A stretch of 64,000 bases of DNA from Sphingomonadaceae bacterium (GTDB lineage Bacteria > Pseudomonadota > Alphaproteobacteria > Sphingomonadales > Sphingomonadaceae), in NCBI GenBank assembly GCA_021732525.1, contig JAKFUU010000018.1, positions 186,001 through 250,000 on the forward strand. Reading direction: 5' to 3'. A program made the position numbers and the translations under genes. Positions 5,745-41,748 of the stretch are shown here, in pieces. Numbering within the stretch: position 1 is the stretch's first letter; every line of letters starts with the position of its first letter. The notes beneath the pieces are model-generated. The model searched no databases. It saw only the letters and a list, made by a program, of their open reading frames with translations, and was not told where the DNA came from.

Positions 5745-5759
5745 GAACATACAAGGAAC
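5745..5759 (-). promoter_or_regulatory. LexA-type SOS box upstream of lytic transglycosylase
   Basis: GAACATACAAGGAAC, that is GTTC-N7-GTTC on the minus strand, the binding site of alphaproteobacterial LexA. A third GTTC follows at 8-bp spacing (minus strand GTTCTTTACTTCGTTC). The site lies between the divergent transglycosylase (ATG at 5715) and primase-like gene (ATG at 5840) and may serve both. Confidence 0.75.
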
Positions 5760-25593: not shown

Positions 25594-25626
25594 GTTCTTG
25601 ACATGTTCCTATTCATGACTTAAATA
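25594..25626 (+). promoter_or_regulatory. promoter of the mobilisation operon with an SOS box over its -35
   Basis: TTGACA (25598-25603), a 17-bp spacer and TAAATA (25621-25626) form a strong sigma70-like promoter. The exact SOS box GTTCTTGACATGTTC (25594-25608, GTTC-N7-GTTC) contains the -35 hexamer inside its spacer, so bound LexA would block RNA polymerase. Confidence 0.85.
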
Positions 25627-25679: not shown

Positions 25680-26006
25680 ATGGCACGTCCATTGTCGTTA
25701 CAAATCTATGTATCGCGCGAGCTTGCCGGGCGCGTGCGAGCCGCCGCTGCTCGAAATGATCTGAGCGTCAGCGAATGGGTCCGCACGCTCGTCACATCGG
25801 CCTGCGATCAATCTGAAAATGCCGGTCAGCACGATAAGGTCATCGAGCGAATTCACCGCCAATCGGTCTTCATCATGGTGGGCCTGGATGCTCTATTGGC
25901 AGGGCATCCTGATCATGGTCTGCGAGACCGTGCTCACCAGGCTTATGGTCGTAAATGCAAGCAGCTTGGGATCACATCGAGCACATCGGAAGGATCTTCA
26001 ACATGA
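25680..26006 (+). CDS. ribbon-helix-helix relaxosome accessory protein (TrwA/MobC-like)
   Basis: A 108-aa protein. The start LSLQIYVSRELAGRVRAAAARNDLSVSEWVRTLVTSAC has the ribbon strand and two helices of an RHH DNA-binding domain. The C-terminal helices could mediate tetramer formation. Its stop overlaps the traD start (ATGA). The order RHH-TraD-TraI matches trwA-trwB-trwC of R388, where the RHH protein binds oriT, assists the relaxase and represses the operon. A similar role is inferred. Control: SOS box over the promoter and a hairpin over the ribosome-binding site. Confidence 0.82.
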   Translation: MARPLSLQIYVSRELAGRVRAAAARNDLSVSEWVRTLVTSACDQSENAGQHDKVIERIHRQSVFIMVGLDALLAGHPDHGLRDRAHQAYGRKCKQLGITSSTSEGSST

Positions 26007-28372
26007 AGCGGAACCTTCTTAATTTTACCCGCGGCAGCCAGTTGCTGGGCCACTTTGGTTTCATGTTTGCAGCCGGGTTGAAAGGTCCGATCATGGTCGC
26101 CGTCGCAACCATTGCAGGCATGACATATTGGATGCTGTCAGACGGGCTTTCCGATCACGACCGCTATCTCGTCTGGATGCGCATCTATGCCGCCATTTAT
26201 GGTTTTATGGAGCTCGATCCGCAGAAATTGATCGCGCTCGAAACAGGACTTGGCGGAACGATGCAGCTGCCTGTTTCAGAATTGGCATCCTTCCCGACGG
26301 TGGCGCGCGCATGGGACCAGATGGCCGAATTAATGGGTGCGGCTTTAACACGGTCTGCTTTGCTGTTGGTACCGGCACTGATCGCCTTTTATTGGTTTGC
26401 CGCGCGCTTCGGGAGCCGTTCGAAAGAACGCAAACATGAGCGCGGCGCCATGCTCGTCACACTGCATGAGCTGGTCGAGGAAGTGCGCGTTCACAACAAT
26501 AAGGAACGAGCTCGCGAGTTGACAGCAGCAATGGGAAGCAAGTGGCGACTGACCCTTCCGAGCGAGATCGCAAAAGTCTTTCCTTATCGCCCTTCGCATC
26601 TGGCGCAGGTCACCTATCCATGGCGACTTGAGCAAAGCCATGCGATGCTAATCGGTACAACCGGTATGGGGAAGACCGTGGCGCTTTCGGACATGCTGGA
26701 AGAAGCGCGCGTCAATGGCCAGCGCGCGGTTGTCTTTGACCTCACCGGTACTTTCATCGAGCATTTCTACGAGAGCGATCTAGACATTATATTGAACCCG
26801 CTCGATGCACGGTGTCCGCAATGGAGCGTGTTTGACGAGTGCCGTGACGAGGCAGAATTTTCGGCTGCTGCGGAAGCGTTGGTACCCCATGACGGCGGCG
26901 GCTCGGAACAATTCTGGGTACTCGCGGCGCGGCTGCTGTTCGTAGAAATGTGTCTCCGGTTGCGTGCCGATGGCATAGGCACCAACCAGGCATTGGCAAG
27001 CGAGTTGATGACCGCCGATCTCTCGGCGGTGCATAAATTGATGCGCGGTACGATTGCCGATCCACTGACCGCACCGGAAGCCGCGCGGATGGCGGAATCG
27101 ATCCGCGCGGTGTTCAATGCCAACGCCAAAGCGCTCAAACTTTTACCGCGCTCGGGTCCAAAATTCTCGGTCCGTGATTGGGTCGAAGCAGAAGACAGAC
27201 CGAGCTCGATCCTGTTCATATCAGCGCGCTATGTCGACATGAGCGTATGCTCGCAATTGCTCACCGTATGGCTCGATACCGCGATGAACACATTGATGGC
27301 AATGGACCGATCGGCCGACTTGCGCCTGTGGTTTTTCATAGATGAAATGGGCGCGCTTCACCGCCTGCCAGCGCTTGAAAAAGGCCTTCAGACGGCGCGT
27401 AATTTCGGCGGGGCCATCGTCACCGGCATCCATGCTTATGCCAAACTCAAAGAGGTTTACGGAGAGAATATGGCAATGACCTTGTCATCTCTCGCCCGCA
27501 CCAAACTGATCCTGGGAACCGCAGACCGCGAGACCGCAACCTGGTGCTCGGACTTCATTGGCCACCGTCAGGTCCGGGATATGGAAGAAGGCTATACTTA
27601 TGGGTACAATAATGCGCGCGATGCCGTTAGCTTGACGCCGCGCAAGAATATCGAACCCTTACTCTTGCCCGACCAATTGATGAACTTGCCGCGGCTTTCG
27701 GGTTATCTCAAATTCCCCGACGGCTTTCCTGCAGCTCCCGTCAAACTGTCACCCGTTACACGCAAACGCCGCGCAAAATCATTTATCAGGCGGGCGGAGG
27801 ATCGCGACTATAATATTGGCGGTGAACCATATCTGGTAGCACCACATGACCCAAAGCCCGGCAGCGATGACAGCAATACACACCCATCATCCAATGACGA
27901 CGGCGCTGGCAAACCGGTCGCTCCCAAACAAGGCGAACTGATACTCAAACAACCAGAAGATCAGCCCGACCGAAAGACGGGTAAAAAAGGTCGTAAGCCA
28001 GTAGCGAACGACCCTGAGAAAATGCGGCAGCAACTAGCCGACCGGCGAGGAGCGAAAAGCAAAAGCGCTGGTAGCAAAGCACCCATTGGGCATCAAACAA
28101 AGGCACAGGACTCGCCCCTAACGCGTTCCTCGATACCCTTGCCATCTGTTGTGCGTGCGGAGGCGGCAGAGGCCGAACAGTCCGCACTCGTTAGCCAGAC
28201 TACCACCGGAAAACTGGCAGGCTCGCAGGCGCAACACCAACTGGTGGAAAAGCCAGCACAGCAAGCAGCTAATCAAAATCGCACTGCAAATGATGCCCGG
28301 AAACTGATGCTGGAAGACGGCCTGAGCGAACGCGAGGCGGTCGACCTTGGCGACGTCGATATGGATATGTGA
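26003..28372 (+). CDS. traD: type IV coupling protein TraD
   Basis: Start at the ATG at 26003, overlapping the RHH stop; the track starts 16 codons earlier inside the RHH gene. The 789-aa protein begins with two membrane segments (about residues 22-45 and 105-130). The ATPase has Walker A GTTGMGKTVA near residue 217, FDLTGTFIEHFY, and Walker B LWFFIDEMGALHRLP near 441, then SLARTKLILGTADRETATW. A long, Lys/Pro/Gln-rich, low-complexity tail of about 200 residues probably contacts the relaxosome. It delivers the relaxase-DNA complex to the type IV channel at the inner membrane. TraI follows 35 bp downstream. Confidence 0.93.
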   Translation: MKRNLLNFTRGSQLLGHFGFMFAAGLKGPIMVAVATIAGMTYWMLSDGLSDHDRYLVWMRIYAAIYGFMELDPQKLIALETGLGGTMQLPVSELASFPTVARAWDQMAELMGAALTRSALLLVPALIAFYWFAARFGSRSKERKHERGAMLVTLHELVEEVRVHNNKERARELTAAMGSKWRLTLPSEIAKVFPYRPSHLAQVTYPWRLEQSHAMLIGTTGMGKTVALSDMLEEARVNGQRAVVFDLTGTFIEHFYESDLDIILNPLDARCPQWSVFDECRDEAEFSAAAEALVPHDGGGSEQFWVLAARLLFVEMCLRLRADGIGTNQALASELMTADLSAVHKLMRGTIADPLTAPEAARMAESIRAVFNANAKALKLLPRSGPKFSVRDWVEAEDRPSSILFISARYVDMSVCSQLLTVWLDTAMNTLMAMDRSADLRLWFFIDEMGALHRLPALEKGLQTARNFGGAIVTGIHAYAKLKEVYGENMAMTLSSLARTKLILGTADRETATWCSDFIGHRQVRDMEEGYTYGYNNARDAVSLTPRKNIEPLLLPDQLMNLPRLSGYLKFPDGFPAAPVKLSPVTRKRRAKSFIRRAEDRDYNIGGEPYLVAPHDPKPGSDDSNTHPSSNDDGAGKPVAPKQGELILKQPEDQPDRKTGKKGRKPVANDPEKMRQQLADRRGAKSKSAGSKAPIGHQTKAQDSPLTRSSIPLPSVVRAEAAEAEQSALVSQTTTGKLAGSQAQHQLVEKPAQQAANQNRTANDARKLMLEDGLSEREAVDLGDVDMDM

Positions 28373-28407: not shown

Positions 28408-31338
28408 ATGCTTTCGGTTGCCAATGTCCGAACCGCAGGCGGCGCTGCCAATTATTTTGCAGCTGACAATTATTATACCCGCGCCGATGCCGACCGCTCG
28501 GGCGAGTGGGTTGGCAAAGGTGCTGAGATGCTTGGTCTCGATGGGCGGGTCGACGCCAAGCAGTTCGAGGCAATATTGAAAGGCTTGCTCCCCGACGGCA
28601 ATCGCGTCGGCAGTGAAGGCCGCGATCATAGACCAGGGACCGACCTGACCTTTTCAATGCCCAAAAGCTGGTCACTCATTGCGCTGGTTGGAGGTGATAA
28701 CCGCATCATCGATGCGTACCGCGACGCAGTCAAAGAGACGCTTCATTGGGCCGAAAAGAACTTGGCTGAGACCCGAATGGAGGTCAGAGGCCGCGAGAAA
28801 GTTGTGCCCACGGGTAACTTGCTCGTGGGCCTTTTCCAGCACGACACCAACCGCAACCAAGAACCCAATGCGCATTTCCATGCGGTTGTTGCCAATGTCA
28901 CCCAAGGCCCAGACGGTAAATGGCGTGCGCTGCGAAACGACAAATTATGGACACATAATACTTTGTTGAATGCGATGACGATGGCGCGTTTCAGACTATC
29001 GGTTGAAAAACTCGGATATGAAATTGGTGAGCAATCCAAGCACGGCAATTTTGAAGCAGCAGGCATTACGAAAGAGCAGCGCGATGCATTTAGTTCAAGG
29101 CGTGCCGAGATATTGAATGCGCTTGGCGGCATGGCCACCGGCGGGCTGGCAGCGCGCAACGCCGCCAACCTGATGACCCGGGTTCCCAAAGCAACGATTG
29201 AGGACCGCGCTGGTTTGGGACGTGCATGGGGCCAAAAAGCAGACGAAATGGGACTGAACGCTACTGCTTTGATAGCACGCGCTAACGCACGCGCAGCGTC
29301 GGATATTGGCGGCGTCCCGACCTTGAGCGACAAGGTCCAACAGCTCGCGGCGCACGGAAAAGAATGGGCAACGGCGATTGCTGAACGACTTGGCGTAAAG
29401 CAGGGAGACCAGCTGGTGCCACGCGACTTGAGCCGACGGTCACCAAGCGAAATTGCTGCAGTTCACGCTGTTGCGTCTGCAATCCGGCAATTGGGCGAGC
29501 GCGAGGCAGCCTTTGCCAAAACCGATATTTACAAAGCGGCGCTCGACTTTGGCTTGCCGACCGCCATGCCGCAAATCGAGCAACGCGTCGGTCAGCTGTT
29601 GCGCCAAGGCCAGCTGCTCAAGGGCAAAGGGGCGGACCGGCATTTGGTCACTACTGCCGATGCGCTTGCGGCAGAACAGCGGATATTAGCGTCGGTCGAT
29701 CAAGGCAGGGGAGCTGCGCCAGCAGTAGTTTCGACAGAGGTCGCCGGAGAACGGCTGCAGGCACTGTCGCAGCTTCAATATGGCATTACGCTCAATCCCG
29801 GTCAGGAAGGGGCAGGGCGGCTGATATTAAGTTCGCATAACCGCATCATTGCGGTTCAGGGTATTGCGGGCGCGGGCAAAAGCACATTGCTCAAACCGGT
29901 TGGCGATATATTGCGTGAAGAAGGCCGCAATGTTCTCGGGCTGGCAGTCCAGAATACGCTGGTCCAGATGCTCGAACGCGATACCGGCATTTCTTCGATG
30001 ACGGTAGCGCGGTTTATCAGGCAGCACGGTCCATTGCTCGACACCCGCGATCCGTTCAAACTCGCAGAAGCACGCTCAAACATGCGTGGCACCGTCGTGA
30101 TGCTGGACGAGGCCTCGATGGTCGGCAACGCCGACAAGGACAAGCTGCTTCGTCTTGCCAATCTCTTGGAGCTCGACCGTTTTGTCAGCATCGGTGACAA
30201 GAAACAGCTGGGCGCGGTCGATGCAGGCAAACCATTTGACGTGATGCAGCGGGCAGGCACCGAGACTGCGATCATGAATTTGAATATCCGTGCGCGTGAC
30301 CGCATGCTTCGCAATGCCCAATATGCAGCGCAAGGCGGCCAGATTGAAGTGGCACTGCGGCATCTGGGGCCACATGTGGTCGAGGTTCCTGAAAATGCTG
30401 CATTGGCGGCGGCAGCTGCATGGCTGTCGTTGGCGCCGCAAGAGCGCGGTAGCACTGCGATCTATGCGTCAGGCCGCGCGTTGCGGGGGCAGGTCAATGA
30501 AGCGGTGCAAACCGGACTCAAGGCTAATGGCGAATTGGGAGACAGGGTGTTTGCAACCGATACGCTCTCGCGGATTAACACTACCCGCGAAGAACTTCGC
30601 TACGCTAAGACCTATGTTCCCGGCATGGTGGTCGAGGTCGATCGGCGGCAACGCAGTCAGGCCATCGGGCAGGGGCGCTATGAAGTGGTCGCTGTCGATG
30701 CAGCGCGTGGACGGGTAACGCTTGAAAATGCGCGCGGCCGCCAATTCGAGTTGAAGCCAGGCCAGTTGCGGCCACAAGGCGAGGCCGATCCATTGCGGCT
30801 GTTCGAACTTAAGTCGCTCGAGTTATATGCAGGCGACCGCATCCGCTGGACGGATACCGATCATAAGCGCGGTCTGCTGAATGCCGATCAGGCGCAAATA
30901 TTGGATATTGGCGACAAGGGAATAGCGCTCAAAACGTCGGCTGGCATCGAACATCTGCTGAAACCGGATAATCCCATGTTGAAGCGGCTTGATCTGGCAT
31001 ATGCGCTGAATGCCCATATGGCACAGGGTCTGACCTCGGATCGCGGCATCGCTGTGATGGACAGCCGCGAGAAGAATCTCTCGAACCAGCAGACGTTTCT
31101 GGTGACGATTACCCGTCTACGTGATGGTCTGACCTTATATGTCGATAATGCCAGCAAGCTCGAGAAAGCGGTCGAACAGAACACGGGCTTGAAGCGCTCG
31201 GCATTGGAGACAACCGGTTTGCTGAAAGATGCGGCGGCTGCTGGCGTTGCCAAAGGCAAAACTAAAGAGCCGGCGCAGGGCCGCGAACCGCCCGAGCGCG
31301 ACCGCTCCATCGTCAAGCCGTTTGAAATAGGGATATGA
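28408..31338 (+). CDS. traI: MobF relaxase-helicase TraI/TrwC
   Basis: A 976-aa protein, close to TrwC (966 aa) and much shorter than F TraI. The relaxase part has the N-terminal tyrosines (GGAANYFAADNYYTRAD; Y16, Y22, Y23), RPGTDLTFSMPKSWSL, and the HUH metal site HDTNRNQEPNAHFHAVVAN near residue 150. From about residue 440 comes a superfamily-1 helicase: GIAGAGKST (Walker A, near 485), VVMLDEASMVG, SIGDKKQLGAVDAG and, near the end, YALNAHMAQGLTSDRG and TRLRDGLTLYVD. It nicks oriT, stays bound to the 5' end and unwinds the strand. Last gene of the mobilisation operon. Confidence 0.95.
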   Translation: MLSVANVRTAGGAANYFAADNYYTRADADRSGEWVGKGAEMLGLDGRVDAKQFEAILKGLLPDGNRVGSEGRDHRPGTDLTFSMPKSWSLIALVGGDNRIIDAYRDAVKETLHWAEKNLAETRMEVRGREKVVPTGNLLVGLFQHDTNRNQEPNAHFHAVVANVTQGPDGKWRALRNDKLWTHNTLLNAMTMARFRLSVEKLGYEIGEQSKHGNFEAAGITKEQRDAFSSRRAEILNALGGMATGGLAARNAANLMTRVPKATIEDRAGLGRAWGQKADEMGLNATALIARANARAASDIGGVPTLSDKVQQLAAHGKEWATAIAERLGVKQGDQLVPRDLSRRSPSEIAAVHAVASAIRQLGEREAAFAKTDIYKAALDFGLPTAMPQIEQRVGQLLRQGQLLKGKGADRHLVTTADALAAEQRILASVDQGRGAAPAVVSTEVAGERLQALSQLQYGITLNPGQEGAGRLILSSHNRIIAVQGIAGAGKSTLLKPVGDILREEGRNVLGLAVQNTLVQMLERDTGISSMTVARFIRQHGPLLDTRDPFKLAEARSNMRGTVVMLDEASMVGNADKDKLLRLANLLELDRFVSIGDKKQLGAVDAGKPFDVMQRAGTETAIMNLNIRARDRMLRNAQYAAQGGQIEVALRHLGPHVVEVPENAALAAAAAWLSLAPQERGSTAIYASGRALRGQVNEAVQTGLKANGELGDRVFATDTLSRINTTREELRYAKTYVPGMVVEVDRRQRSQAIGQGRYEVVAVDAARGRVTLENARGRQFELKPGQLRPQGEADPLRLFELKSLELYAGDRIRWTDTDHKRGLLNADQAQILDIGDKGIALKTSAGIEHLLKPDNPMLKRLDLAYALNAHMAQGLTSDRGIAVMDSREKNLSNQQTFLVTITRLRDGLTLYVDNASKLEKAVEQNTGLKRSALETTGLLKDAAAAGVAKGKTKEPAQGREPPERDRSIVKPFEIGI

Positions 31339-31574: not shown

Positions 31575-32219
31575 CTATTGCAGCTTGCGCCCAAACCACA
31601 GCACCCGGCCAACGATGTTGATCGAGCGGCGTTCCATGCTCTGCCAGGTGGGATAAGAGGGATTGTCGCTAATCACCGATATCTGGCGGCCTTTTGGTTC
31701 GATTGCGATCCGTTTCACATTGAGCATATCATCCATTCGCAGCACATAGATCCCGTCGCGCAAGCGGGACTGGCCATCACCCAGATCGACCATGACCTCG
31801 TCACCATCGAACAATGTCGGTTCCATGGAATCGCCCAGCACGCGAATGATCGACAGACTTGCCGCTTTGCTCTGGGTCAGCTTTTTGAGCCAATCCTCAT
31901 CAAACCCGAACTGTGCGGTTTTGGACTCCATTTCGGCAAGCGCGCCGTGACCAGCCGAAGCAGCGACATCCAGCACCGGAACATGGACCAGATCGACGAC
32001 AGGGCCGCTTCGCCGTGTCGGGCCGCCGAGAATAACTTCATCCACGCCAAAATAGCGGGCGAGCACTGCCCGGTCGCGTTCATCCAACGACCGGGGTGAG
32101 CCGCGTTTAATATATTGCTGGATATAAGCAGCATTGCGCCCAAGCAGCCGCGAGATGCCCGAATAATCATCGTGGTTCTTGCGGATCAGTTCATCGAGCG
32201 CTGTTCTGGGGTCGTCCAT
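31575..32219 (-). CDS. S24-family LexA/CI-like repressor
   Basis: A 214-aa protein. The N-terminal 75 residues are a DNA-binding domain with DDYSGISRLLGRNAAYIQQYIKRGSP as helix-turn-helix. A linker with LDVAASAGHGALAE offers an Ala-Gly bond of the kind cut in LexA/CI self-cleavage. The S24 peptidase domain has the nucleophile in VLGDSMEPTLFDGDEVMVD and the general-base lysine in MLNVKRIAIEP. Such proteins are inactivated when RecA filaments form. Upstream are the TAGGA/TCCTA operator (32243-32267) and an SOS box (32282-32296), so it probably represses itself and may be the element's own switch. It is divergent from the 57-aa gene. Confidence 0.88.
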   Translation of the reverse strand: MDDPRTALDELIRKNHDDYSGISRLLGRNAAYIQQYIKRGSPRSLDERDRAVLARYFGVDEVILGGPTRRSGPVVDLVHVPVLDVAASAGHGALAEMESKTAQFGFDEDWLKKLTQSKAASLSIIRVLGDSMEPTLFDGDEVMVDLGDGQSRLRDGIYVLRMDDMLNVKRIAIEPKGRQISVISDNPSYPTWQSMERRSINIVGRVLWFGRKLQ

Positions 32220-32242
32220 TTTGCCGGTCCTTCTGTCACCAT

Positions 32243-32267
32243 TAGGATTTAATCCTAGACTCTAGGA
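32243..32267. promoter_or_regulatory. tripartite operator TAGGA-N5-TCCTA-N5-TAGGA upstream of the S24 repressor
   Basis: TAGGATTTAATCCTAGACTCTAGGA contains two overlapping perfect palindromes, TAGGATT-T-AATCCTA (32243-32257) and TCCTAG-ACT-CTAGGA (32253-32267), so three alternating half-sites are spaced exactly 10 bp apart. It is 24 bp upstream of the repressor start and is the obvious site for autoregulation. Confidence 0.75.
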
Positions 32268-32281
32268 AATCGCCCTATTAC

Positions 32282-32296
32282 GAACAAAACAAGAAC
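32282..32296 (-). promoter_or_regulatory. LexA-type SOS box upstream of the S24 repressor
   Basis: GAACAAAACAAGAAC, GTTC-N7-GTTC on the minus strand. It is 63 bp upstream of the S24 start and 21 bp upstream of the 57-aa gene on the other strand, so either or both may be SOS-controlled. Confidence 0.75.
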
Positions 32297-32316
32297 ACAA
32301 GCTGGAATTGAGTCGG

Positions 32317-32490
32317 ATGCAAACGCAACTTTTGGAACAAATCGAGCAATATCTTGTGCGGACAAAACTGTCGCCGACGCGCTTTGGGCGGATGGCGGTT
32401 CATGATCCGAGATTCGTAACGGACTTGCGGGCAGGCCGCAAACCTCGGCAGCGGACAATGGAAACGGTGTCGGCATATCTAGCGAAGTAG
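32317..32490 (+). CDS. small HTH-like protein (57 aa)
   Basis: Start at the ATG at 32317; the track's TTG is three codons earlier and the ribosome-binding site is weak (GGAATTGAG). The sequence MQTQLLEQIEQYLVRTKLSPTRFGRMAVHDPRFVTDLRAGRKPRQRTMETVSAYLAK reads as a compact helical domain of the type often annotated as a small hypothetical in alphaproteobacteria. The RFGRMAVHDPRFVTDLRAG part resembles an XRE-like turn. It is divergent from the S24 repressor and shares its operator region, a Cro/CI-like arrangement, but a Cro role is only an inference. Confidence 0.55.
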   Translation: MQTQLLEQIEQYLVRTKLSPTRFGRMAVHDPRFVTDLRAGRKPRQRTMETVSAYLAK

Positions 32491-32794: not shown

Positions 32795-34102
32795 ATGAAG
32801 TTGAAATCCTGTTTCGCGGTATTACTGCTCAGCACAACTGTACTTCCGACTGCTCCCGTCATCGCCAATGACATTGCCCCAAGTGCGCGCGTGTCGAGCG
32901 CGGTTCTGGTTCGCGAAGGACCATCTACGAATACTGCCATTATCGCACGCCTGAGGCCCGGCGAAACCGCAACCTTGGTTGACCAAATTAGCGGCTGGTA
33001 CATAATTCAGCTTGCCGATGGCACTCGTGGTTATGTCAGTAAGGCGTGGACCATCATTAAAGTCGATGCAGGTGACGAACCGCTGATTGCCGGGAGCCAC
33101 AAGATCCACGTGATTGATGTCGGAACGGGACTTGCCGTCTTCGTCGAAGGACCGGAATTCGCCCTGCTTTATGACGCTGGTAGCCAGGATGATCTCCACG
33201 GCGGCGAGGAAAACAGGGTCGTCTCTTACATACGTGCAGTCCGGCCAGACCTTTCGCGTATCGACCATCTCATTCTCAGTCATCCCCACAAGGACCACCT
33301 CCAGCTCATGCCTGCGGTCTTTGACACTTATCAGGTTCGCAACATCTGGGAGTCGGGTAGAGTGAATAAGACCGACGGTTATTGTCATTTTTTAAAGGCG
33401 GCCATGACCGAGCAAGGCGCGCGGTACCATGATGCCATCGCTTCCAATGCAACCCGCAGTGTTACGTTTACCGGAAGTGGTTGCAATGGGACCGTGAATG
33501 TTAGGCAAGCCGATATGATGAGCACTGTACCTGTTGAGCTTGGCGTTACAGCGAAGATGCAGTTCCTTTATCGCGATGCGCATCCCTACGCCGATCCAAA
33601 CGGTAACAGCGTCGTTGTTCGTCTGGATCTTGGAGGAAAAAGAATTTTGCTTGCAGGCGATGCAGAGGGAGGAGAGCGGGAATTGCCGTCTACGTCTCCT
33701 AGTCCACGCAGCATCGAAGCAAAGCTACTCGATTGCTGCGCCAGCGAATTGAAAGCCGATGTGCTTGTCGTCGGACACCATGGCAGCTTGACATCGTCGC
33801 GGGCGGAATTTCTCGATGCGGTGAATGCATCAATCTACGCAATATCGTCGGGTACATACGCCTACCGTAAAGTGCGCCTTCCCGATGCCGAAATTGTGGC
33901 GGAACTCGAAAGTCGTGGTCAAGTGCTTCGAACAGACCGAGGCGATGCCTTTCGTATCGCAGACGAATCCCGTGCGTGTGAGATGCGAGAACGGAAGATA
34001 GGTCCCGATGCAGACGAAACGCCCGGCGGATGCGACAATATAGTTATCACGATTGAGGAAAACAGCCCGATCACCGCAAAGTACTCGGGGCTAGTCGATT
34101 GA
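32795..34102 (+). CDS. exported SH3b / metallo-beta-lactamase-fold hydrolase (ComEC C-domain-like)
   Basis: A 435-aa protein with a strong AAGGAGGGGG site. A signal peptide (LKSCFAVLLLSTTVLPTAPVIA) is followed by a bacterial SH3 domain (VLVREGPSTNTAIIARLRPGETATLVDQISGWYIIQLADGTRGYVSKAW), about residues 30-90. The rest is an MBL fold of the ComEC/Rec2 C-domain type: IHVIDVGTGLAVFVEGPEFALLYDAG, the metal-site LILSHPHKDHLQLMP, ILLAGDAEGG, and VLVVGHHGSLTSS. Such domains act on nucleic acids or phosphodiesters at the cell envelope. It leads a plus-strand series (DUF2235 and the 599-aa gene). A role in degrading incoming DNA or in signalling is inference. Confidence 0.82.
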   Translation: MKLKSCFAVLLLSTTVLPTAPVIANDIAPSARVSSAVLVREGPSTNTAIIARLRPGETATLVDQISGWYIIQLADGTRGYVSKAWTIIKVDAGDEPLIAGSHKIHVIDVGTGLAVFVEGPEFALLYDAGSQDDLHGGEENRVVSYIRAVRPDLSRIDHLILSHPHKDHLQLMPAVFDTYQVRNIWESGRVNKTDGYCHFLKAAMTEQGARYHDAIASNATRSVTFTGSGCNGTVNVRQADMMSTVPVELGVTAKMQFLYRDAHPYADPNGNSVVVRLDLGGKRILLAGDAEGGERELPSTSPSPRSIEAKLLDCCASELKADVLVVGHHGSLTSSRAEFLDAVNASIYAISSGTYAYRKVRLPDAEIVAELESRGQVLRTDRGDAFRIADESRACEMRERKIGPDADETPGGCDNIVITIEENSPITAKYSGLVD

Positions 34103-37912: not shown

Positions 37913-40525
37913 TTAAGGCGTAGTGATTGCAATTTCGTCATCGCTGTCCGGCAGCAACTTCTCGCGAATTTCGCGAAGGATGATTGCCGGAATGGCCATC
38001 ATTTCGAACTGGCTCTCGCGATCGACAGCCCAGGCAAGACAACCTTCCTTGGTAAGATCGTCCCTTGCGATCTTCTCATAGAGCGTAACAGCGCTCATTC
38101 TCGATAGACCCAGCTCCATGAGCGATAAAAGTGTCACCGACGAGATGCCAAATTCGAGCTGCGTTCCGATATCGAGACCGGACGCGATCTGGTCTTCCCG
38201 ACCCGTTTCGCGAAGGTAAAGGTTTAGGATGTCCATATAGGCGGCGAAGTATTTGGGCGCGCGGAACCGCGCCGTTTGTTCCACGAGTTCCATGGTGTGC
38301 CGAATGAGCACCGGCAACTTGAACGGCTTGTTGTGATCCCGGTGATATTGGATATTACGTCGGATCATTGCTGCGAGCGAAAAGCCCTTCAGCCATTGCA
38401 CGACAATCAAAGCGTGGAGCGGGATTAGCCCTTGCGGAAGAAATGCCGGATAGAGGTGTTCGTTGATCCGCCGCATGATGGTGACGAAGCGGTCGTAGCT
38501 ATCCTGACTCTCGACCGCAGCAGGCAACAGGTTATCGATCTCACCCTTATAGCCGCGAAACGCTTCGAGCAGCCGCTGGAGACCGAGTGCGCTGACGCCG
38601 GGATGGCGGTCGGCGATTTCAGGCCGGATTTCGATTTGTGCGGCAATGGTTGCGAGGCTTTCTTCCAGTTTTTCGATCATCGCCGGACTGTGCCTTTTGG
38701 CGAGACCGGCTTGCGCGATCGAACCAAGGCGCAGGTAAGTCGCGAGCAGATAGGCACCGACCTGCTCGTATTTTCCGACATCTTCGAGTTCCGCTACCGG
38801 TGTCGTTGCACGCCTATCGAGATAGGCTGCCATGCCGTCTCCTAAATCCAGGACGGCATCGCTTTCCCGACGGATGGGATAGCGTGAGCGCGCGGGCACC
38901 CCAGTTGGCCAGGCGGCGCTATCCTGTGGGTCGATGCAAACAATGTTGCCTTGGAATTCATTGCCCCAGCGACCGGCCCGGCCCGCTAGATTCCAGAAAT
39001 CATGCGGCTCCATCGGATGCCCAATGCCTTTGCGCGGCCCTCGTACAACAATGGTGCGGCAGGAAAGATTGACGCCTTCAATCAGCGTCGAGGTGCATAC
39101 CAGGAACCTTATCTTGCTGTGTCGAAACAAGCGCTCGACCTCCAGCCTGATCAGCGAGGGCATGTTGCCATAATGAAAGGCTACCCCCCGCTCGACGAGC
39201 GATGCCAGCGTAAAATTGGGATGAACACCTTTTCGTGCCAAGTCGGCGAGCTCGCTTAACTCGGTGTCAGGCTCGGAAAGAGCCGGAATAAGCTGGCTAA
39301 TGAGATCGGCGACTTCTTCGGCTTCTCCGGCGCCGTTCGCATAAACTAGCGTGCCGCCACGCTCGCCAACCGCTGCCGATATGAAGGCGAGCTTTTTGCG
39401 GAGTGTACCTGGCGAGCTGCCAAGCTGCAGAAGGCCGACGGGCAATGATGCTCCGGTCTGGCGGACTGACAAATTCCATTGCTTTGGCTTTCCCGGGACT
39501 TGCTCAGCCAGGATGAGATTTTGTAGTACGGTGGGAAAATCGCTGTCGACCGCTACGGTGCTCGCCGACTTAGGAGCGTCGGCGAGCAACTCCTCGGGAT
39601 TCTGGGTCGCGGGACTGATGAATACCACTTTAAGCTGGGAATTGCCCCGTTCCAATCGCTCGACAGCATCCTGCAGAATGACCCCGCGTTGACTGTCTCC
39701 GATCTTGTGCGCCTCGTCGACGATAAGGAGGTCTACTCCAGCGGCGTCACCCAAAGCGTTTGCTAGCAGGTGCAGGCGCTCTTGGGTGAAAACGAGAATT
39801 AGTTTCAGCCCACCTGCACGGGCAGCATCGTATTTCTCGCGCAGGGGCAGCGACGAGACCGCTATTCCGCTGTTCTTTCCGAGCAGCGATGCGAGTTCAG
39901 CTTCAATCTCCGAAACCAGCGCCCGCGTCGGTGCCAAGTATACCGCGACGCGTGCATCGGTCGATCTTAGATGATCGACTAGCCATTGCAGGACCAAGAA
40001 GGTCTTGCCCGAAGCCGTAGGAGCGGAAGCGGAAAGCCAGTTATGACTGTTGGCATCGTTCCAGAACTGCTGCTGAAAGTTGTTGACCGAAAGCCACCGA
40101 CCGTTCGATTCTACTAAGACAGAATGATCCACCTGGCGACGTTGCATTTCCATGCGTAGCGCCATGCCGAGCCGCGTTTCGAGGCCCGACTTCAGCAGTT
40201 CGCGATCATGGGCGAGGCCGACGGCCCGAAAGTTCGACAGTTTGTCGAGGAGCACCGCACCGGCGTCCTTTACTGGCTGAGTGTTGTCCATCGTTACTGC
40301 GGCAGTGGCAATCCTTAGTGCCGTTTCCTGCTCGGGGCGCAGCGCCGAACGCGCTAATATGCTTCCTGCGAGCAGAAGCCTCGTCCAGTCGATTTCAGGG
40401 AACCCACCGCCGGGATCGGGCGCGAGATTATCGAGTTCGGTCCGCACAGTAAGGCGCGTCACAGCGTCAACATCCGACCGGACGCCGTCGCTCATCAACC
40501 AAGCATTGAGGGCCGTCAACGTCAT
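37913..40525 (-). CDS. hamB: Hachiman helicase HamB
   Basis: Start at the ATG at 40525, which overlaps the hamA stop (ATGA), replacing the track's longer start. The 870-aa superfamily-2 helicase has SASAPTASGKTFLVLQWL (Walker A, near residue 168), VYLAPTRALVSEIEAEL, LLIVDEAHKIGDSQRG (DEAH, near 267), VFISPATQNPEEL, then the C-terminal half with GVAFHYGNMPSLIRLEVERLF, CTSTLIEGVNLSCRTIVVRGP and FWNLAGRAGRWG. The helical C-terminal part matches Ski2-like helicases. With HamA it forms Hachiman, in which the helicase senses damaged or single-stranded DNA and unleashes the nuclease. Confidence 0.92.
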   Translation of the reverse strand: MTLTALNAWLMSDGVRSDVDAVTRLTVRTELDNLAPDPGGGFPEIDWTRLLLAGSILARSALRPEQETALRIATAAVTMDNTQPVKDAGAVLLDKLSNFRAVGLAHDRELLKSGLETRLGMALRMEMQRRQVDHSVLVESNGRWLSVNNFQQQFWNDANSHNWLSASAPTASGKTFLVLQWLVDHLRSTDARVAVYLAPTRALVSEIEAELASLLGKNSGIAVSSLPLREKYDAARAGGLKLILVFTQERLHLLANALGDAAGVDLLIVDEAHKIGDSQRGVILQDAVERLERGNSQLKVVFISPATQNPEELLADAPKSASTVAVDSDFPTVLQNLILAEQVPGKPKQWNLSVRQTGASLPVGLLQLGSSPGTLRKKLAFISAAVGERGGTLVYANGAGEAEEVADLISQLIPALSEPDTELSELADLARKGVHPNFTLASLVERGVAFHYGNMPSLIRLEVERLFRHSKIRFLVCTSTLIEGVNLSCRTIVVRGPRKGIGHPMEPHDFWNLAGRAGRWGNEFQGNIVCIDPQDSAAWPTGVPARSRYPIRRESDAVLDLGDGMAAYLDRRATTPVAELEDVGKYEQVGAYLLATYLRLGSIAQAGLAKRHSPAMIEKLEESLATIAAQIEIRPEIADRHPGVSALGLQRLLEAFRGYKGEIDNLLPAAVESQDSYDRFVTIMRRINEHLYPAFLPQGLIPLHALIVVQWLKGFSLAAMIRRNIQYHRDHNKPFKLPVLIRHTMELVEQTARFRAPKYFAAYMDILNLYLRETGREDQIASGLDIGTQLEFGISSVTLLSLMELGLSRMSAVTLYEKIARDDLTKEGCLAWAVDRESQFEMMAIPAIILREIREKLLPDSDDEIAITTP

Positions 40526-41514
40526 GGTTTCATGCCCATTGCCCTTAGAAAGGCGTCTCGGAATGCTTCGGCTGAAGGCAGGGGGATGCAAAAGAATTCA
40601 ATCTCAATCTGGTCGAGCTTTTCGGCTGCAATCCGGTCCCCGAGGCTCTTTTTCCAGCTTTCCAACCCGGTGCGGGTCGCGGCAATGATGTCGTCCGCCA
40701 CGGCCTTGACATCGTCGCCGGGATAAAAGTCGGCGTCGAAGCCGACCAGCGCCACCCCACAATACTGGACTCGTTTAGACTGTATCGCGCTCTTATCGAA
40801 GTAGCGCCGCAGCGCGTCGGTTAAATGGGGATTGTTCAAATCCGCCTTGTCGCTCAGCAATACAAGGTCGCGCTCGCGGTCGGCTCCTTCATGCTCGGGT
40901 TCGATCAAGAATGGAGCAAGGGATGCAAGGCAATCGCGAATGGCATCAGACGCGGATTTATAGACTTTTGATTCGCCCCAATACAGCTTGAGAAGCCCGT
41001 CGTCGCTGATGCCTGCATATACGCCATCCGCACCGTGATAGTGCATCCGCGTGTCGGTCTTCAGGTCCATCTTGCAGAGAATCTGCGGAAGCTGAAGAAA
41101 GCGCTCTGCGAGGAGGAATAGCAGCATTTCGCCGCCTTCGCCGGTCTTGGCTAGGTCCGTGAAGGAACGGCGCGCCTCTTCAAGCAAACCGCCGACAGCT
41201 TCTGTGCTGTTGTATTTCGTGTCACGCGCCTTGGCCTGCGCCAGCTTCGACCGCGGTATTGCGTAATCGGCCACGGCGTTGCGCATGAATTCCGCAAGGC
41301 GTTGTGGCTGAACTCGGCCGTTACCGTCTACAGTCAAACAGTGGCAGTGAATCTTGATCTGGTGACCGTCGATGACCACATCGCGCTCTACCAGTTCGAG
41401 ATGAACCTCAAGCGCTTCGGGGTTACCGGTCAGCGCTGACGTCAAATCGGATGCGGTTATACTTGACAGATTGCCCCCCCTTTCACCTCTCACTCCCAAC
41501 CTAGCAGGCCTCAT
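40522..41514 (-). CDS. hamA: Hachiman nuclease HamA (DUF1837)
   Basis: The track runs from a TTG at 41595; I prefer the ATG at 41514 because a promoter with a palindrome fits at 41555-41582, but the start is uncertain. The 330-aa protein is a DUF1837 family member: GEGGEMLLFLLAERFLQLPQILCKMDLKTDTRMHYHGADGVYAG, then LLKLYWGESKVYKS, giving the E...D...ExK residues of a PD-(D/E)xK nuclease. In Hachiman, HamA is held by HamB and degrades DNA when set free. The overlapping start of hamB ensures coupled synthesis. Confidence 0.9.
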   Translation of the reverse strand: MRPARLGVRGERGGNLSSITASDLTSALTGNPEALEVHLELVERDVVIDGHQIKIHCHCLTVDGNGRVQPQRLAEFMRNAVADYAIPRSKLAQAKARDTKYNSTEAVGGLLEEARRSFTDLAKTGEGGEMLLFLLAERFLQLPQILCKMDLKTDTRMHYHGADGVYAGISDDGLLKLYWGESKVYKSASDAIRDCLASLAPFLIEPEHEGADRERDLVLLSDKADLNNPHLTDALRRYFDKSAIQSKRVQYCGVALVGFDADFYPGDDVKAVADDIIAATRTGLESWKKSLGDRIAAEKLDQIEIEFFCIPLPSAEAFRDAFLRAMGMKP

Positions 41515-41554
41515 CTTAGCTAAATCGAAAATTCTTGTCGTTCGATATTTGCAG

Positions 41555-41582
41555 TTATTAGCCGAGTCTAATACTCGTCCAA
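41555..41582 (-). promoter_or_regulatory. candidate Hachiman promoter with internal palindrome
   Basis: On the minus strand TTGGAC (41577-41582), a 16-bp spacer and TAATAA (41555-41560). The inverted repeat TATTAG-N6-CTAATA (41556-41573) fills the spacer and the -10, so a repressor there would block transcription. Transcription would start about 30 bp before the ATG at 41514. Confidence 0.5.
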
Positions 41583-41748
41583 ATACTTTGTCCAAGCGGA
41601 CCGACTGGCTGCCTCACTGTACCTTTTCAGGCAGTTCGCAACGTGCAGCTCAGCGGCTATGCGCACTAGCGTGTTCTTCATACGATCGATGTCTGCCTTT
41701 GGCTCGCCGGTCAGCGCAATGAACGACCGAGTTTAGGGCGCGTAGCTG

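Follow-up and report, generated by a model that had tools for sequence, protein, structure and literature searches.

In the 64,000-nucleotide stretch of sphingomonad DNA analyzed here (the window), a gene for an S24 repressor and a gene for a 57-aa helix–turn–helix (HTH) protein diverge from a short intergenic region that holds repeated TAGGA half-sites and an SOS box. Is this locus a phage-type CI/Cro switch, and which signals would it receive? The question was approached through the sequence and its conservation, protein families, predicted folds, phage relatives, and a look at whether the genome encodes LexA, GcrA, and a CcrM-like protein, all three of which it does. The features are collected in Table 1. 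Here, we propose, based on sequence comparisons and structure models, that the locus is probably a phage-type CI/Cro switch that was domesticated and re-mobilized, with LexA and CcrM/GcrA inputs on the Cro side.

Table 1. Features of the switch locus and of its neighbors in the window
Feature	Position	Strand	Remarks
LexA box upstream of the traD-traI group	25594–25608	−	Identical 15-mer in four sister elements
TraD-type coupling protein	25955–28372	+	Neighbor of mobile copies; from family search
TrwC/TraI-type relaxase	28408–31338	+	Neighbor of mobile copies; from family search
S24 (LexA/CI-like) repressor, 214 aa	31575–32219	−	N-terminal four-helix HTH (S23..GRN..Y32.QQ35..)
Operator palindrome 1	32243–32257	none	TAGGA-TTTAA-TCCTA, half-sites 1 and 2
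GACTC (GANTC site)	32258–32262	none	In the gap between the palindromes
Operator palindrome 2	32263–32277	none	TAGGA-AATCG-CCCTA, half-sites 3 and 4, the fourth imperfect
Alphaproteobacterial LexA box	32282–32296	+	GAACAAAACAAGAAC (GAAC-N7-GAAC)
GAGTC (GANTC site)	32310–32314	none	TGAGTCG fits the GcrA-type YGAKTCK
57-aa protein	32317–32490	+	Predicted four-helix HTH fold (Cro-like); start codon uncertain

The S24 protein matched PF00717 (Peptidase_S24; E = 6e-19, above the curated cut-off) and a phage repressor family (phrog_4; E = 9e-37), and its predicted fold matched lambda CI, the 186 repressor, and LexA with E-values of 1e-6 to 1e-7. In the search for solved relatives, the S24 alignment matched LexA and UmuD, and the single S24 sequence gave no match. 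A cleavage motif (S88-A89-G90) and the catalytic residues S131 and K169 are present. Among 102 relatives, A89-G90 is kept in 100, S131 in all, and K169 in 101. The intact cleavage site, Ser, and Lys agree with the earlier note, which had described a LexA/CI-like, self-cleaving S24 repressor. The protein is not the LexA of the host: it did not match TIGR00498 (the LexA equivalog), and LexA is encoded by a separate gene on contig C4, scoring 162 bits, above the TIGR00498 cut-off. A second, partial LexA/UmuD-like S24 gene lies at G000:C15:2462–2842 (L186) and scores below the LexA cut-off.

The divergent gene appears in the list of open reading frames as 60 aa with an upstream TTG start. AlphaFold2 predicted the 57-aa product as a four-helix HTH protein (pLDDT 91). 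The best Foldseek matches include SinR, 434 Cro, and P22 c2, with E-values that are weak because the protein is short. No family was found for the protein in Pfam, NCBIfam, or PHROG, and the HTH alignment gave no solved relative by sequence. A profile comparison with the N-terminal domain of the S24 protein was not significant and scored no higher than the reversed control. In another S24 protein (L179:1480–2199), the N-terminus was weakly matched by the HTH family profile (E = 5e-6). Elsewhere, an HTH-family domain shares one frame with a fumarase-like protein (L171:1096–3108), and another occurs as a tandem duplicate (L181:1276–1716). Comparison with the closest relative (L012) gave a dN/dS of 0.006 for the S24 gene, indicating purifying selection on an almost unchanged protein. 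The value of 0.27 for the 57-aa open reading frame also indicates purifying selection, yet with much faster change than in S24. Both open reading frames thus evolve as coding genes.

The letters at 32243–32277, TAGGATTTAATCCTAGACTCTAGGAAATCGCCCTA, form two tandem 15-bp palindromes with TAGGA half-sites and GACTC between them. The stretch TAGGATTTAATCCTAGACTCTAGGA (32243–32267) matches TAGGA-N5-TCCTA-N5-TAGGA exactly, the pattern that the earlier note had read as a three-half-site operator. The pattern stands, but the number does not: CCCTA at 32273–32277, one mismatch from TCCTA, is a fourth half-site, and the resulting palindromes, TAGGA-N5-TCCTA and TAGGA-N5-CCCTA, are 20 bp apart. In L012, the fourth half-site is perfect, and the intergenic DNA is 95.9% identical to that of the window, above the identity of either gene. 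With up to one mismatch allowed, the two palindromes were matched and nothing else in the window was (0.46 matches expected). Because 8 of 100 shuffles also reached two matches, the case for the palindromes lies in their adjacency and conservation and not in the count alone. In the 3.0-Mb genome, TAGGA-N5-TCCTA-N5-TAGGA occurs exactly once, and its one-mismatch matches are limited to its own overlap and a paralogous locus on contig C1; no further exact TAGGA-N5-TCCTA was found in the genome besides the local operator. A chance repeat is untenable, since the operator is conserved across about 100 genomes of the family and is nearly unique in each. An S24 regulon of many sites is likewise unsupported, given one exact site in this genome and normally one core operator per genome.

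S24 relatives were found in 140 of 151 genomes of the host family, and an HTH gene is divergent to 102 of 105 distinct S24 loci. The core operator TTCCTAGACAAGTAGGAWWT, with up to two mismatches, was matched in 114 of the 151 genomes, nearly always once, and the reversed control gave almost no matches. The genome studied here has three S24/HTH pairs, in the window and on contigs C1 and C13. Where the flanks show either neighbor, core copies lie near a gene for a metallo-β-lactamase-fold hydrolase and mobile copies near traD-traI; no locus among the flanks examined has both. The 32 mobile copies all group together in the maximum-likelihood tree, to the exclusion of the core copies (clade support 99/87). 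A traI gene was present in the fetched flank of 15 of these 32 loci, and at L085 it lies about 7 kb away, beyond the cargo. In two genomes (G124 and G091), the module and traD-traI are in contigs of 3.7 and 3.5 Mb, so these copies are chromosomal. Judged by these genomes, the S24/HTH pair belongs as a module to the chromosomal core of the host family, normally with one operator per genome. The window copy, by its place in the tree and its neighbors, falls into the one clade that unites the mobile copies, which are found next to traD-traI on F-type conjugative elements. From the list of open reading frames, we take the tra genes at 45–62 kb of the window to be an F-type transfer system, of which traD and traI alone were family-searched. 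The picture of a switch grafted on a LexA-controlled element has to be adjusted accordingly: LexA boxes are found here and elsewhere on the element, but the switch is a family-wide core module whose mobile copies are one clade.

The operators of core and mobile copies have their own spacings. Relative to the second half-site, core half-sites lie at −9, 0, and +11 (in 48, 69, and 67 of 69 loci, respectively); mobile half-sites lie mainly at −9 to −12, 0, and +20, with a site at +10 in 12/32. The gap between the palindromes is mostly GACTC in mobile loci and GACAAG in core loci.

The DNA similarity between the window and L012 (about 90%) ends at approximately 32480, shortly before the HTH gene reaches its 3′ end. 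The cargo beyond this gene varies by element: Zorya follows the C1 copy, Hachiman lies further along in the window, and the spot looks like a hotspot for defense cargo. In the window, this Hachiman anti-phage system is encoded by HamA (DUF1837) and HamB helicase genes at 37913–41595 (− strand). Between the switch and Hachiman are genes for a protein with SH3 and metallo-β-lactamase folds (32795–34102, + strand) and a Tle1-like phospholipase-domain protein (PF09994; 34131–35414, + strand). On contig C1 of the same genome, Zorya A–D directly follow the paralogous S24/HTH pair (L075:11120–18961, + strand).

The region between the operator and the HTH gene contains two further kinds of sites. The SOS box that had been reported beside the operator is indeed there as a LexA box, and the two GANTC sites, at 32258–32262 (within the operator) and 32310–32314, had been overlooked. 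As the loci share ancestry, the following counts express conservation rather than independent events: a LexA box lies downstream of the operator in 32/32 mobile loci (0.09 expected from dinucleotide shuffles) and 26/68 core loci (0.16 expected); GANTC lies between the operator and the HTH gene in 32/32 mobile loci (7.4 expected) and 63/68 core loci (22.5 expected); and YGAKTCK on the same strand is found in 32/32 mobile loci (0.5 expected) and 42/68 core loci (3.0 expected). The exact LexA box is absent in 42 of the 68 core loci, and the LexA input is therefore not universal. The distance from the LexA box to the start of GANTC is 13 bp in 30 of the 32 mobile loci, as it is in the window. Over its full length, the window has eight GAAC-N7-GAAC sites, whereas 1.7 were expected and none of 100 shuffles reached eight. 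Further A/T-rich LexA-type boxes on the element are located at 5745, 25594, 44466, and 63312 of the window.

The genome encodes GcrA, LexA, and a RAMA-domain protein, which is judged to be CcrM-type from this domain only. Many promoters under cell-cycle control in Caulobacter carry a GANTC no more than 50 bp from the start (PMC4287350), and YGAKTCK is the GcrA-type consensus (PMC7987155). The locus resembles the GcrA/CcrM promoters of Caulobacterales in its conserved GANTC near the gene start, often as YGAKTCK (PMC4287350, PMC7987155). One described class of these promoters has GANTC between −35 and −10, whereas the window site is placed relative to the start codon only. It ends 2 bp before the annotated ATG, and a −35/−10 placement would thus fit only with a start codon located further downstream or with a leaderless mRNA. 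A sigma-70-type promoter scan gave no site in the intergenic region.

The conservation of GANTC could have a cause other than methylation, namely a constraint on the sequence of the start region, on a leader, or on an RNA, and the HTH gene would then not be methylation-controlled. Some mobile copies do have GANTC a few bases before the HTH start codon, and the phage-borne pairs described below mostly have none between the operator and the HTH gene. However, the conserved positions in core loci are the four palindromic bases with a flanking Y..G and nothing else, and each of the four letters occurs at the central N (T23, G19, A13, and C6). No other five-base palindrome of this type (XYNY′X′) is comparably frequent in core loci. 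We consider such a constraint somewhat unlikely; it concerns the third input only and is compatible with the rest of the proposed switch.

The same counts bear on the damage input. The S24 protein might not be cleaved and might sense a signal other than damage; the LexA box alone would then be the SOS input, and the pair would serve cell-cycle or copy-state control via GANTC. The higher frequency of GANTC than of the LexA box in core loci (63 versus 26 of 68) is in line with this idea. It is unlikely, however, in view of the near-perfect conservation of the Ala-Gly site and the catalytic Ser and Lys, and of the LexA boxes present in every mobile copy.

The phage relatives support a CI/Cro origin. 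The HTH profile found relatives outside the host family, several of them divergent to an S24 gene, and both phages and further alphaproteobacterial families have TAGGA half-sites beside S24 proteins with the GRN..Y.QQ helix. Temperate phages of Alphaproteobacteria have the same divergent pair with similar half-sites in the classical CI/Cro position. In the Bradyrhizobium phage-plasmid NZ_CP094518, which has integrase, portal, and capsid genes, the pair is located at the divide of the leftward and rightward operons, and the HTH gene heads the rightward operon, that is, the position of Cro. The pair is also found on IMG/VR contigs, alongside genes for RecT, replication, integrase, or exonuclease. 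The earlier note had likened the small divergent HTH-like protein to Cro in a CI/Cro pair, and the predicted Cro-like fold and the divergent phage pairs with TAGGA half-sites support this. In the intergenic regions of the phage-borne pairs, TAGGA-type half-sites are present, the LexA box is missing, and GANTC is mostly lacking from the stretch that separates operator and HTH gene. This difference supports a phage CI/Cro ancestry to which the LexA and GANTC inputs were added later, a direction of change that we infer from the sequence comparison. Four IMG/VR contigs (L194, L199, L210, and L226) end a few bases from the end of the S24 gene, beside a family-type operator; these ends may reflect the trimming of provirus ends.

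The phage layout also bears on whether the HTH protein opposes the S24 repressor at all. The S24 repressor could be autoregulated and the HTH protein a small co-repressor that aids repression by S24 or LexA, like DdrR with UmuDAb or GIL01 gp7 with LexA, and no bistability would arise. The literature reports LexA-like repressors that are modulated by small proteins, either phage or accessory ones (PMC11332147, PMC9437464), which provides a precedent. That the only operator found in the genome is the local one would suit such a co-repressor, as would the lack of a significant profile relationship between the 57-aa protein and the DNA-binding domain of S24. Against it, the 57-aa protein is predicted to adopt a DNA-binding HTH fold of the Cro/c2 type, the HTH gene takes the Cro position in the Bradyrhizobium phage-plasmid, and the same divergent layout is found in phage contigs among replication and recombination genes. 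We regard a co-repressor as improbable and retain the CI/Cro switch as the working model.

In the mechanism proposed for this CI/Cro switch, we infer the pairing of sites with proteins, the cleavage, the promoter positions, the effect of methylation, and the targets of the HTH protein. S24 dimers would bind the two tandem TAGGA palindromes, which are about two helical turns apart, and the bound repressor would silence both divergent promoters, its own and the one of the Cro-like HTH gene. From a position between the operator and the HTH gene, host LexA would act as a second block on the HTH gene only. Through the GANTC site just downstream, HTH expression may respond to CcrM methylation and GcrA, i.e., to replication and the cell cycle. 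Upon DNA damage, RecA filaments would promote LexA cleavage, and the S24 protein, whose cleavage apparatus is intact, would probably be cleaved as well. The HTH protein would be made only once both blocks, S24 and LexA, are lifted. In analogy to Cro and to CroS of SXT, it may subsequently keep the switch induced.

As in the CI–Cro systems of lambda, 434, and P22, an S24 repressor gene and a small HTH gene diverge here from tandem palindromic operators of 14–15 bp, and the predicted folds resemble lambda CI and 434 Cro. Lambda has three palindromes per operator region, whereas the window locus has two. Unlike these phage systems, it is located on chromosomes and conjugative elements and has host LexA and CcrM/GcrA-type sites on the Cro side. 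Among the systems described on conjugative elements, SetR/CroS of the SXT/R391 integrative and conjugative elements comes closest (PMC4542580). There, too, a CI-like S24 repressor (215 aa) and a Cro-like gene on a divergent transcript flank tandem intergenic operators, and SXT is induced through RecA (PMC4542580). SetR has four operators, in contrast to the two palindromes here, and leads to the master activator setCD (PMC4542580), whereas the sole exact operator of the window switch in the genome is the local one. SetR/CroS also differs in that the window switch contains a host LexA box and GANTC and that the family keeps a chromosomal core version. LexA-exploiting phages such as GIL01, which are discussed in PMC9437464, have a host LexA site at a phage-type switch promoter; the window locus differs in combining its LexA box with the element's own S24 repressor and GANTC. 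In the literature searched, GANTC was not found in combination with an S24 operator and a LexA box. A limited search, which is not proof of absence, found no description of the S24/HTH pair or of combined LexA/GANTC control in sphingomonads.

A further reading, which is speculative and which we consider improbable, is that a lysogeny switch was rewired as a combined sensor of damage and DNA methylation on a conjugative element. If this were true, the GANTC sites, one in the operator and one ahead of the Cro-like gene, would distinguish DNA that has just arrived unmethylated from DNA that is resident or freshly replicated. On newly arrived DNA, the Cro-like gene would be off and the repressor would be established first, and induction would require SOS together with the right replication state.

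For the phage-type CI/Cro switch proposed here, the operator TAGGA-N4/5-TCCTA and the protein pair are defined material for bench work in harmless sphingomonads. A phage-derived switch has apparently been kept family-wide in the core genome, with sites for cell-cycle methylation and often SOS in one short promoter, and the version on conjugative elements keeps both inputs, the LexA box and GANTC, in every copy examined. The locus offers a testable case in which SOS and CcrM/GcrA control could combine to time the transfer of elements that carry anti-phage defense cargo.
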